Of a DNA stretch of 64,000 bases, positions 2,594 through 30,703 are shown piece by piece. Location: contig NZ_JAMQON010000001.1 of the NCBI RefSeq assembly GCF_031624395.1, forward strand, positions 124,001-188,000. Reading direction: 5' to 3'. The notes under the pieces are model-generated. The model was not told the DNA's origin, ran no database searches, and was given only the letters and a program-made list of their open reading frames with translations. The position numbers and the translations under genes are program-made. The number at the start of each line of letters is the position of its first letter. The stretch's first letter is position 1. The stretch is from Halomicroarcula saliterrae (GTDB taxonomy: Archaea > Halobacteriota > Halobacteria > Halobacteriales > Haloarculaceae).

Positions 2594-3793
2594 TCAGCGC
2601 TCGCCGGCCATCGCCGCGAAGATGCGCTCCTGGAGCTGTTCGCGCGTGACGCCCTCGCTCGGGCCGATGCCGTCCATGTACTCGATGGGAATCTTCCCGC
2701 CGCCCATGCGGGCGTGGCCGCCGCCCTCGGCCATCGGGATGTCGTCCACGACGGCCTCGATGGCCCGGCCGATGTGGACCCGGTCGTCGCGCGAGCGGCC
2801 GGCGATGCGGATGATTCCCTCTTTCTCGCCGATGACGACGACCGCCGAGACGCCCTCCAGCGTCTCCAGTTCGTCGGCGGCCTGGGGAATCGCGTCGGTG
2901 TTCGACACCTCGCCCACGTCGCTGAAGCCGTAGGGTGCGTTGACCACGCGCTCGCTGATGGCCCGGGACTTCACGTCGAGCACTTCGGCGTCGACCTGTG
3001 GGTTGGCGATGCGGTTCAACAGGTCGCTGTCGACGCCCTCGTAGAGGTACGCCGCCGCGGCGAAATCGGCGGCGGAACAGCCGTTCGTCAGCGACCGGGT
3101 GTCCGACTGGATACCGTATATCAGCCCCGTCGCGACGTGGCTGGGCATCGCGTCCGCCGGCACGTCGGCCGTGTCGACGCCGCCGTCGGTCAGCGCCACG
3201 TCGACCTCGAAGAAGTCCCAGTCGAGCGACTCGAAGTACTCGGCGAAGATGGTCGCACACGCGCCGGTCTCGGGTCGCACGTCGGTGAAATCGAGGCCGG
3301 TGCCGCCACCGGGGTGGTGGTCGACGACGGCGACCGGGTCGATTTCCTCCGCCCCCGCGAAGCCGCGGGGCTCGTTGTGGTCGACGAGCACGACCGCGTC
3401 TGTGTCGATGTCACCGACCGACTCGACGCGCTCGAAGTCGAGGTCGAGCACAGTCTGGAACGCGCGGTTCTCCGGGCGGCGGATTTCGCCCGTGTAGCAC
3501 AGGTTCGCGTCGGTCCCGCCGGCGGCCGCGAGCTGGTCGACGGCCAGCGCCGACGACATCGCGTCCGGGTCCGGGTTGGGGTGCATCAGAACCGTGACCG
3601 CGTCGTAGTCGGCCAGTATCGATTTGAGCCGGCTGACCGGTGACCGCGTCAGATAGCGGTAGAGGGCGAACCCGCCGCCGACGAGGACCAGCAGGCCCAC
3701 GACGACACCCGCGACTTCGACGGGGTTCTCGCTGGCGTAGCCCGGGAGCCCCTCGACCAGACTCACAAGGTCCCCAGCGGCCACCAGATACAT
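2594..3793 (-). CDS. Membrane-anchored DHH/DHHA1 phosphoesterase
   Basis: A 399-residue DHH-superfamily phosphoesterase with one N-terminal membrane helix (about residues 27-47, GVVVGLLVLVGGGFALY). Catalytic motifs of the RecJ/NrnA/GdpP group are visible: HPNPDPDAM (DxD), the DHN of VDHNEPRG and DHH in VDHHPGG, then the DHHA1 glycine motif GGGHARMGGG near the C-terminus. The family contains nanoRNases and cyclic-dinucleotide phosphodiesterases. The membrane anchor recalls GdpP-type enzymes, but the PAS and GGDEF parts of GdpP are absent, so the substrate (cyclic di-AMP, pApA or short RNA) is open. A CTTATTG box at 3816-3822 supports this start as leaderless. Confidence 0.85.
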   Translation of the reverse strand: MYLVAAGDLVSLVEGLPGYASENPVEVAGVVVGLLVLVGGGFALYRYLTRSPVSRLKSILADYDAVTVLMHPNPDPDAMSSALAVDQLAAAGGTDANLCYTGEIRRPENRAFQTVLDLDFERVESVGDIDTDAVVLVDHNEPRGFAGAEEIDPVAVVDHHPGGGTGLDFTDVRPETGACATIFAEYFESLDWDFFEVDVALTDGGVDTADVPADAMPSHVATGLIYGIQSDTRSLTNGCSAADFAAAAYLYEGVDSDLLNRIANPQVDAEVLDVKSRAISERVVNAPYGFSDVGEVSNTDAIPQAADELETLEGVSAVVVIGEKEGIIRIAGRSRDDRVHIGRAIEAVVDDIPMAEGGGHARMGGGKIPIEYMDGIGPSEGVTREQLQERIFAAMAGER

Positions 3794-26710: not shown

Positions 26711-26896
26711 CACGAGCGCAGGCTCGTCGGAGCTTGTCTCCGACGGCGTCTTCGTGAGTAACCCGTAGGGTTACGAACGAAGGCTCGTCAATCTCTGATT
26801 GACGGTGTCTCCGCGAGTGAGCCGGTAGGCTCACGAGGGGAGGCTCGTGAGGGCACTGCCCTGAAGGCGTCTCAGAGAGTAATCCCCCTGATTACT
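26696..26896 (+). repeat. Tandem hairpin array copied from the sufD 3' end
   Basis: Four copies of a box resembling the last 15 bases of sufD start at 26696, 26747, 26806 and 26868 (spacing 51, 59, 62). Between them is a second constant box, AGGCTCGT (26720, 26781, 26841). Each box is followed by a short hairpin. Stems: CGTCGGAG/CTCCGACG, GTAACCC/GGGTTAC, CGTCAATC/GATTGACG, GTGAGCC/GGCTCAC, AGGGC/GCCCT and AGTAATC/GATTACT. The stem sequences differ completely from unit to unit while pairing is kept. Three of the four sufD-like boxes still read R-L-R-E-stop with different codons. This is the 3' untranslated region of the suf operon; function unknown. Confidence 0.85.
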
Positions 26897-26929
26897 GTCT
26901 GATACTCGTCTTCCACGGTCGTTTCGGGA

Positions 26930-29374: not shown

Positions 29375-29850
29375 GTCTGACCCAGCCCGTCGCGTCGGAC
29401 CACCAGCTCGCGCGCCTCCTCCAGATCGGCATCGTCCTCGAAGAGGTCGTCGAGGCGCGAGCCGCCAAACACGCGGCGGCGACCACCGCGAACGACTCAC
29501 AGCTCCACGAGCTGCTCTCCGAGGCGTCGGCCGAGTCGGCCGACCACCGCCGCCGGCTGGAAGCGCTCGTCGAGGACCTCGACGCCGACACCGTCCCGTT
29601 CGAGGAGATACAGACCCTCGTCGAGGCCCAGTACGAGTCCGACAAGGACTTCGACGGTGTGTTGTACGACCAGCTCTGCAACGAGGAGACGGCGTACAAG
29701 TTCTACGACGACCTCATCGATTCTATCGAAGCGTCCGAGACCGACTTCGGTCTCGACCGCGAGCGGCTGCTCGACGTCCTCTCGACCATCCGCGAGGAGG
29801 AGGCCGCGGGCGTCGAGGACGTGACCGAACTCATGGAGGCACGAGAATGA
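29371..29850 (+). CDS. Ferritin-like helical protein upstream of a DtxR-family regulator
   Basis: A 159-residue all-helical acidic protein. Helix 1 carries VLEEVVEARAAKHA (Glu/His), helix 2 ADHRRRLEALV, helix 3 QLCNEETAYKFYDDLI and helix 4 LSTIREEEAAGVEDV; the spaced Glu and His residues resemble a rubrerythrin/ferritin-like diiron four-helix bundle, though I cannot align all ligands. It starts with GTG preceded by a strong Shine-Dalgarno GGAGGTG 6 nt away, unlike most genes here. It is coupled (ATGA) to the regulator downstream, a context that suggests metal homeostasis. Confidence 0.7.
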   Translation: MSLTQPVASDHQLARLLQIGIVLEEVVEARAAKHAAATTANDSQLHELLSEASAESADHRRRLEALVEDLDADTVPFEEIQTLVEAQYESDKDFDGVLYDQLCNEETAYKFYDDLIDSIEASETDFGLDRERLLDVLSTIREEEAAGVEDVTELMEARE

Positions 29851-30281
29851 ACACGCAGGCTCAGTATCTGAAGGCGATATACCTCACACAGCAACAGGCC
29901 GACGGTCCGGCATCGACCGGCGACGTCGCGAATCTGCTCGACGTCAGCCCAGCCAGCGCCAACGAGATGATCGGTAAGCTCGAGGACCGCGGCCTGCTCG
30001 ACCACGAGAAGTACAAGGGCGTCGACCTCACTGACGAGGGCATCACACAGGCCCGTGACGCCCTGCAGAACTACTGTATCATCGAGCGGTTCCTCATCGA
30101 GGTCCTCGAAGTCGAGGACTTCCGCGGCGAGGCCAAGACGCTCGAAGGGGTCATCGACGAGACCGTCGCCGAACGGCTCGACACCATCATCGACCGCGAA
30201 CCGCAGTGTCCCGACTGCTTCAACGCCGAGGACGACGTCTGTGGTCTGCTCGACGTCGAGGCCGAAGTGACGAGCGACTAG
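29847..30281 (+). CDS. DtxR-family metalloregulator-like protein with altered metal site
   Basis: A 144-residue regulator with the DtxR N-terminal winged HTH (residues 1-65, YLKAIYLTQQQ...SPASANEMIGKLEDRGLL) and the helical dimerisation domain. The canonical DtxR/IdeR ligand motif HxEACxxEH reads RGEAKTLEG here (about 93-101), and the conserved HR of the preceding helix is YC (76-77), so the usual His/Cys ligands are missing. Instead four cysteines are present: Cys77 and a C-terminal CPDC...C cluster (121, 124, 132). It lacks the SH3-like domain, as in short SirR/MntR types. It may sense metal or redox state through these cysteines. Confidence 0.82.
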   Translation: MNTQAQYLKAIYLTQQQADGPASTGDVANLLDVSPASANEMIGKLEDRGLLDHEKYKGVDLTDEGITQARDALQNYCIIERFLIEVLEVEDFRGEAKTLEGVIDETVAERLDTIIDREPQCPDCFNAEDDVCGLLDVEAEVTSD

Positions 30282-30311
30282 CTCTCGAAGCGTTCAAGTG
30301 CATTCCGGCGG

Positions 30312-30324: not shown

Positions 30325-30500
30325 AGTCCCGTGGTGGTGAGCAATCTCGACGAGATTGCGAGGCACATGGGGCGAACGAAGCGAAGTCCCGTGGTGGTGA
30401 GCGAACCTGTGGTTCGCGATGCTCACGGGGCGAACGAAGCGAAGTCCCGTGGTGGTGAGCGAACCTGTGGTTCGCGATGCTCACGGGGCGAACGAAGCGA
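30325..30500 (+). repeat. Tandem hairpin array copying the 5' end of tRNA-Gln
   Basis: Three units begin at 30325, 30385 and 30443 (60, 58 and 58 bp to the tRNA start at 30501). Each opens with AGTCCCGTGGTG, the first 12 bases of tRNA-Gln, followed by GTGAGC, a hairpin, and GGGGCGAACGAAGCGA. Units 2 and 3 share the stem GCGAACC/GGTTCGC; unit 1 has an unrelated but perfectly paired stem (GCAATCTCG/CGAGATTGC). An outer pairing CCCGT/ACGGG can close units 2 and 3. It probably forms the 5' leader of the pre-tRNA, to be removed by RNase P. Confidence 0.85.
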
Positions 30501-30603
30501 AGTCCCGTGGTGTAGTGGCCAATCATATGGGCCTTTGGAGGCGTTCGCCTTCGGCGAGCGCCGAAGACAGCCCACGACGGCGGTTCGAATCCGCCCGGGA
30601 CTA
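30501..30603 (+). tRNA. tRNA-Gln(UUG) with bulge-helix-bulge intron
   Basis: Acceptor stem AGTCCCG/CGGGACT with discriminator A; D-arm GTGTAGTGGCC; anticodon stem TGGGC/GCCCA; loop CTTTGGA with anticodon TTG at 30535-30537; T-arm GGCGGTTCGAATCCGCC. The 3' half of the anticodon stem is displaced by a 30-nt intron at 30539-30568, inserted after position 37. The intron folds as GGCGTTCGCC/GGCGAGCGCC around TTC, and CTTT/GAAG can form the central helix of a bulge-helix-bulge substrate for the tRNA splicing endonuclease. Mature length is 73 nt; CCA is not encoded. An intron in tRNA-Gln(UUG) is known in haloarchaea. Confidence 0.93.
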
Positions 30604-30672
30604 TTTTCGCGCGAACAACTTCGTGAGCGTGAATATCCTCGGCGGTTCGCGCCCAGAAGACGAGAGGATTCG

Positions 30673-30703
30673 AGTCTTCGTGGTTCGAATCCGCCCGAGA
30701 CTA
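30673..30703 (+). pseudogene. Degenerate tRNA-Gln 3' fragment
   Basis: About 100 bp after tRNA-Gln, GGTTCGAATCCGCCCGAGACTA repeats the tRNA's 3' end (GGTTCGAATCCGCCCGGGACTA) with one difference, preceded by AGTCT, which could still pair with AGACT. The D and anticodon arms are missing. It is a remnant of a duplicated tRNA or a leftover attachment-site copy; no integrase lies nearby. Confidence 0.65.

Follow-up and report, generated by a model that had tools for sequence, protein, structure and literature searches.

Intergenic palindromes of the REP/BIME type are short bacterial repeats that occur in many copies and combine a conserved hairpin with a variable stem, and t-elements are tRNA-like processing signals in Haloferax RNAs. 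In Haloquadratum walsbyi, PATEs, SMRs, and MITEs are short, transposase-free palindromic repeats of approximately 50-110 bp, in which deletion between repeats shortens the element and alters its copy number (PMC3119063). PATEs and SMRs make no target duplication and have been described as dispersed or inside other mobile elements, like MITEs (PMC3119063). Here, we analyzed a 64-kb window (the whole stretch of Halomicroarcula saliterrae DNA under study) in which a tRNA-Gln gene is flanked on both sides by palindromic units that carry copies of the tRNA's own ends. We found no published description of such units in the open-access library that we searched.

The tRNA-Gln(UUG) gene occupies 30501-30603 on the forward strand (cmscan, RF00005, 49.6 bits), with its discriminator A at 30603 and a 30-nt intron at 30539-30568. 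ARAGORN did not detect this intron-bearing tRNA-Gln in the 64-kb window at default settings, but reported it as tRNA-Gln(TTG), with an intron of length 30 at intron position 39, when introns were permitted. Upstream, at 29847-30281, lies a gene that Pfam identifies as a DtxR-like regulator of the iron-dependent-repressor type. The sequence AGTCCCGTGGTG, with which the tRNA begins, recurs exactly at 30325, 30385, 30443, and 30501; allowing up to one mismatch gave five matches against 0.64 expected, and as many were seen in 0 of 100 shuffles. We could therefore confirm what an initial annotation of this DNA had described, namely three units of 58-60 bp that open with the first 12 nt of tRNA-Gln and abut the gene. 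They lie at 30325-30384 (unit 1, R1 match 69.4 bits), 30385-30442 (unit 2, 63.7 bits), and 30443-30500 (unit 3, 65.4 bits), have lengths of 60, 58, and 58, with unit 3 identical to unit 2, and form an array with a TRF score of 293. Each unit starts with the copy of tRNA nt 1-12, followed by a GTGAGC-stem-GCGA hairpin; after four unpaired bases come the acceptor strand in inverted copy and a linker of the GAACGAAGCGA type found in unit 1. The inverted acceptor copy reads CACGGGGC in units 2 and 3 and CACGGGAC in most relatives. As had also been noted, the unit 1 stem differs from that of units 2 and 3 yet is fully paired (AATCTC/GAGATT versus GAACC/GGTTC); it is one among many such variants.

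The other side of the gene carries a 100-nt 3' unit at 30604-30703, which has a hairpin with a GAACAACTTCGTGA loop, a degenerate inverted T-arm at approximately 30641-30653, a palindromic core (AGAAGACGAG...GAGTCTTCG), and, at 30684-30703, the sequence TTCGAATCCGCCCGAGACTA, which duplicates the 3' end of the tRNA. Homologues of this unit were found after tRNA-Gln and other tRNAs. Read from the tRNA outward, both flanks share one order of linker hairpin, inverted copy, core hairpin, and direct copy; a regular-expression scan for the linker hairpin returned nothing usable in the 64-kb window. The initial annotation was thus right about the three 5' units and overlooked the intron, the inverted acceptor copies, and the 3' unit.

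A single promoter-like block conserved in relatives, GTTCAAGT at 30292-30299, stands 33 nt before unit 1, in agreement with the earlier observation that a TATA-like box precedes unit 1 only. In unit-bearing relatives this block lies a median of 42 nt before the first unit and approximately 112 nt before the tRNA, and in unit-less relatives it lies 36 nt before the tRNA. The units take the place of the tRNA start behind the promoter and therefore should lie in the transcribed leader and be made as part of the pre-tRNA, a position that the initial annotation had also assigned to them. Downstream, the first T-run after the last 3' unit showed no clear pattern. In genome G002, grouped with the source genome in one genus (L249, C1:785300-805000, reverse strand), a 254-aa HNH-nuclease-like open reading frame separates the DtxR-type regulator gene from tRNA-Gln, on the site that the promoter and hairpin units occupy in relatives. 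We considered this open reading frame as an integrating element and rejected it, as the tRNA ends were not found a second time.

Among contigs with a matching tRNA-Gln(UUG), a comparison of related species that the initial annotation had called for, 5' copies were present in 21 of 119 and 3' copies in 20 of 119, while most relatives had no units. The copies occur in Natrialba, Natrinema, Natronorubrum, Haloferax, Halorubrum, Haladaptatus, Halalkalicoccus, Haloarcula, and others, and a single Woesearchaeon match is probably due to chance. The 5' units are conserved over several haloarchaeal families, and the number of units at tRNA-Gln varies from zero to three within the genus of the source organism.

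To look at other tRNAs, we compared the last 20 nt of each isolated tRNA with the 200 nt downstream, allowing up to two mismatches, with ends swapped among tRNAs as the control. Own 3'-end copies followed 14 of the 44 isolated tRNAs of the source genome, compared with none of 1848 mismatched pairings. Haloferax gibbonsii had such copies at 10 of 21 solo tRNAs (1 of 406 mismatched) and Natrialba sp. SSL1 at 6 of 29 (0 of 792), fractions that are approximate because these samples were the best-scoring 30 tRNAs per genome. No own 3'-end copies were seen at 17 tRNAs from the phylum's other classes, outside the haloarchaea. A genome pattern for the 3' hairpin had 23 matches in four genomes, versus none for the reversed pattern, and comparison with tRNA coordinates placed nearly all of the 23 directly 3' of a tRNA. 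Across tRNAs, 5' copies were rarer than 3' copies and were found at tRNA-Gln and tRNA-Gly, both of which have GGTGG-like sequence near nt 8-12, a sequence that looks favored for 5' units. Our genome-wide statements are built on tRNA loci together with model and pattern searches. The units are neither an accident of the tRNA-Gln gene nor specific to glutamine.

Two further loci of the source genome were unusual. The 3' array of tRNA-Gly(ccc) (L032, C7:196223-196565) repeats as a 174-nt compound unit and is found at the ends of two contigs (L032 and L372, C3 end), probably reflecting an assembly break inside the array. A dense island with many tRNA-like genes (L057/L236, C1:884102-887987) includes a tRNA-Ile(gat) and a tRNA-Gly(tcc) whose T-loops apparently contain an inserted hairpin core of the 3'-unit type, with GGTTC or GTTCGA repeats on either side of it.

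We then aligned the copies, 86 at 3' ends and 39 at 5' ends, to the tRNAs that they duplicate. At the 3' boundary, identity was 0.81 for nt 73 and 0.42 for nt 74; at the 5' boundary, it was 0.97 for nt 1 and 0.44 for nt -1. The search seed included nt 1-9 and not nt 70-74. Given the sharpness of these drops, the copies end at the mature tRNA ends. Inside the tRNA, identity extended to near nt 52 in 3' copies and to nt 12 in 5' copies. The length of the direct copy is set by the mature tRNA end and comes to approximately 10 bp at tRNA-Gly, 12 bp at tRNA-Gln 5' ends, and approximately 20 bp at 3' ends. Two helices, one formed by the tRNA copy and the inverted copy and the other by the hairpin stem, were paired in 95.4% of cells across 33 distinct 5' units, and 60 cells showed double changes, compared with 17.4 in shuffles and at most 6 when slid. 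Base pairing is conserved in the 5' units, and the covariation fits selection on an RNA or on a DNA hairpin alike. In the 3' units, the inverted arm mostly showed 1-4 mismatches to the T-arm of its own tRNA and mostly 3-5 to the arms of other tRNAs, with a large overlap because T-loops are conserved. We looked by eye for a clean k-turn (L7Ae site) at the internal loop of GTGAGC/GCGA and discarded it, since no drawing was consistent over the variants.

We searched eight genomes with a covariance model built on the 5' unit, and it matched at the 5' ends of tRNA-Gln and tRNA-Gly and also, in reverse orientation, just 3' of tRNAs Gly, Arg, and Ala (E=4e-10 after tRNA-Gly(ccc) and 2.3e-8 after tRNA-Arg(cct)). 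The conserved GA-containing strand is antisense in these mirrored 3' units, which points to a feature at the DNA level. Weaker relatives without a nearby tRNA scored 20-50 bits, compared with 60-80. At three of them (L353, L359, and L363), a local flank of approximately 10 bp is repeated directly and roughly inverted (CCGACGGTGG in L353 and L359, GATTCGGAGG in L363); the direct copies of off-tRNA relatives are imperfect in several cases, and some of these relatives lie inside open reading frames (L359 and L377). Because the motif occurs in both orientations, and in coding sequence as well as in leaders and trailers, the simplest reading is that it belongs to the DNA. The coding copies in L359 and L377 add acidic, Ser/Arg/Gly-rich stretches, such as EADGGEPSEARRSSSVERSESDGGTET in the L359 protein. 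Elsewhere in the window, at 26755-26900, we observed an intergenic array with no adjoining tRNA and at least two hairpins with a tandem GA/GA motif, one of them built as CTTCGT-GA-GTAACCC-GTA-GGGTTAC-GA-ACGAAG and the second on the same plan; an array of this type is also present in Haloarcula rara (L150, approximately 3313-3490).

The initial annotation had suggested that the repeated 5' ends could act as decoys for the 3' acceptor strand of the tRNA. They can do so in silico: with forced pairs, the window precursor reached -144.2 kcal/mol in the native and -146.2 kcal/mol in the decoy arrangement, so that capture by a decoy is favored by 2.0 kcal/mol over the best fold that retains the native acceptor stem. 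In model folds of many precursors, computed without proteins or folding order, the outermost decoy takes the 3' acceptor strand, and the 5' strand of the tRNA itself is bound by the inverted copy. Over 18 other loci, native minus decoy energy had a median of +0.45 kcal/mol and a range of -4.5 to +4.7 kcal/mol, the two folds being nearly equal because the layout makes both use the same helices. The models show no consistent preference among the alternative folds, whereas the sign would be expected to stay the same in a tuned switch. During transcription, each unit would be expected to close on itself before other pairings form. The Gln-tRNA-specific switch once proposed is not supported: the architecture flanks many tRNAs and is absent at most tRNA-Gln loci, and the sign of the fold energies is inconsistent. 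The other option offered, a tolerated accident, comes closer, but we see a family that recurs across Halobacteria and not one accident.

We favor, with about even confidence, a haloarchaeal family of palindromic repeats that settles at tRNA ends, leaves the tRNA intact, is trimmed in maturation, and changes copy number by recombination between direct copies. An element of this family would consist of a direct local copy, a hairpin (GTGAGC-stem-GCGA in 5' units), an inverted copy, a second hairpin or linker of the GAACGAAGTGAG type, and a further direct copy. At tRNA genes, the units directly adjoin one of the two mature ends, so that the tRNA stays complete and the unit would become part of the leader or trailer of the pre-tRNA, from which RNase P and tRNase Z may remove it; such removal would make tRNA ends a safe harbor. 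Recombination between direct copies could change the copy number, as is suggested by the identity of units 2 and 3 in the window. Each unit may mask its own decoy by pairing with its inverted copy, and co-transcriptional folding should therefore leave the tRNA free. Against the repeat-family reading, we found no transposase or recombinase for the units and no clean empty site outside tRNAs, and the off-tRNA relatives have lower scores and, in several cases, imperfect direct copies. The exact stop at mature tRNA ends, which a fixed-length target duplication would not give, also counts against it; so does the strong compensatory change of the stems, which could equally reflect selection on RNA. 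We also regard as possible, though only tentatively, that these are undescribed mobile or self-copying palindromes specialized for tRNA gene ends, each copy acquiring the direct and inverted end of its host tRNA and stopping at the mature nucleotide. A class of this kind would hint at a tRNA-reading mechanism, perhaps with an RNA intermediate, or at an enzyme able to recognize tRNA gene ends from either side.

The main rival is a functional RNA, in which hairpins of the leader and trailer would imitate the acceptor end and the T-arm and would have a role in the folding, processing, or regulation of the pre-tRNA, the decoy switch included. The location of the units between promoter and tRNA, the strong covariation of their stems, alternative decoy and 3'-strand folds within a few kcal/mol, and the conservation of 5' units over several families all speak for it. 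We nevertheless consider it rather unlikely, given that most relatives manage without units, that many different tRNAs bear them, that loci disagree in the sign of their fold preference, and that the conserved strand is antisense in mirrored 3' copies. Repeated integration and excision by tRNA-targeting integrases could instead have left displaced tRNA 3' ends as remnants of attachment sites; haloarchaeal prophages bounded by short repeats of a tRNA 3' end are known (PMC3119063), and the 3' copies, though not the 5' units, extend from the T-loop as far as nt 73, which resembles the identity block of an integrase target. What lies between the copies, however, is 80-170 nt of hairpin sequence only, with neither cargo nor integrase, and the constant spacing, conserved palindromic core, and inverted arm, together with 5'-end copies that are equally common at tRNA-Gln, make this origin improbable. 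Moreover, the exact tRNA-Gln 3' end occurs in only 2 of 2.9 million viral contigs, and as both also hold the tRNA-Gln 5' end at tRNA distance, they contain a tRNA gene and not an attachment fragment. A local accident of replication slippage at the tRNA-Gln gene alone is very improbable. The identity of units 2 and 3 does indicate that the newest step was a tandem duplication, but slippage would not create inverted copies and a shared hairpin core, homologues of the units are present at other tRNAs and, in several families, at tRNA-Gln, and own-end copies at many tRNAs in three haloarchaeal genera refute it as the whole explanation.

Own-end copies surround about one third of the isolated tRNA genes in the source genome and nearly half of those in the scorable Haloferax sample. 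If transcribed, they would make haloarchaeal pre-tRNAs longer and more structured than assumed and would place decoys for RNase P and tRNase Z in them. Should the units be mobile, an unrecognized repeat family would be targeting tRNA ends. Both questions can be addressed in the genetically tractable Haloferax and Haloarcula.

The units resemble REP/BIME palindromes in being short, present in many copies, and built on a conserved hairpin with a variable stem, but REPs carry no host-gene end copies matched to each locus. Like t-elements, they place T-arm- or acceptor-stem-like pieces within a precursor RNA, and unlike t-elements, these pieces copy the adjacent tRNA itself and vary in tandem number. 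With integrase attachment sites in tRNA genes they share duplicated tRNA ends beside a complete tRNA (PMC3119063), and they differ from these sites in lacking gene cargo and in their constant short length, palindromic core, inverted copy, and presence at both tRNA ends. With PATEs, SMRs, and MITEs, the nearest groups in the literature, they have in common that they are short, palindromic, transposase-free, haloarchaeal, and variable in copy number through repeat-mediated deletion, although none of those repeats has been described with a copy of a neighboring tRNA's end (PMC3119063). Each tRNA unit is flanked by direct copies, contrary to the PATE and SMR rule of no target duplication, and these copies measure approximately 10, 12, and approximately 20 bp where a MITE would have a target-site duplication of fixed length. 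As these target-duplication rules do not fit, we do not file the units as members of any of the three groups; their inverted arms, moreover, match the local tRNA and not a fixed terminal sequence as in the terminal inverted repeats of MITEs.
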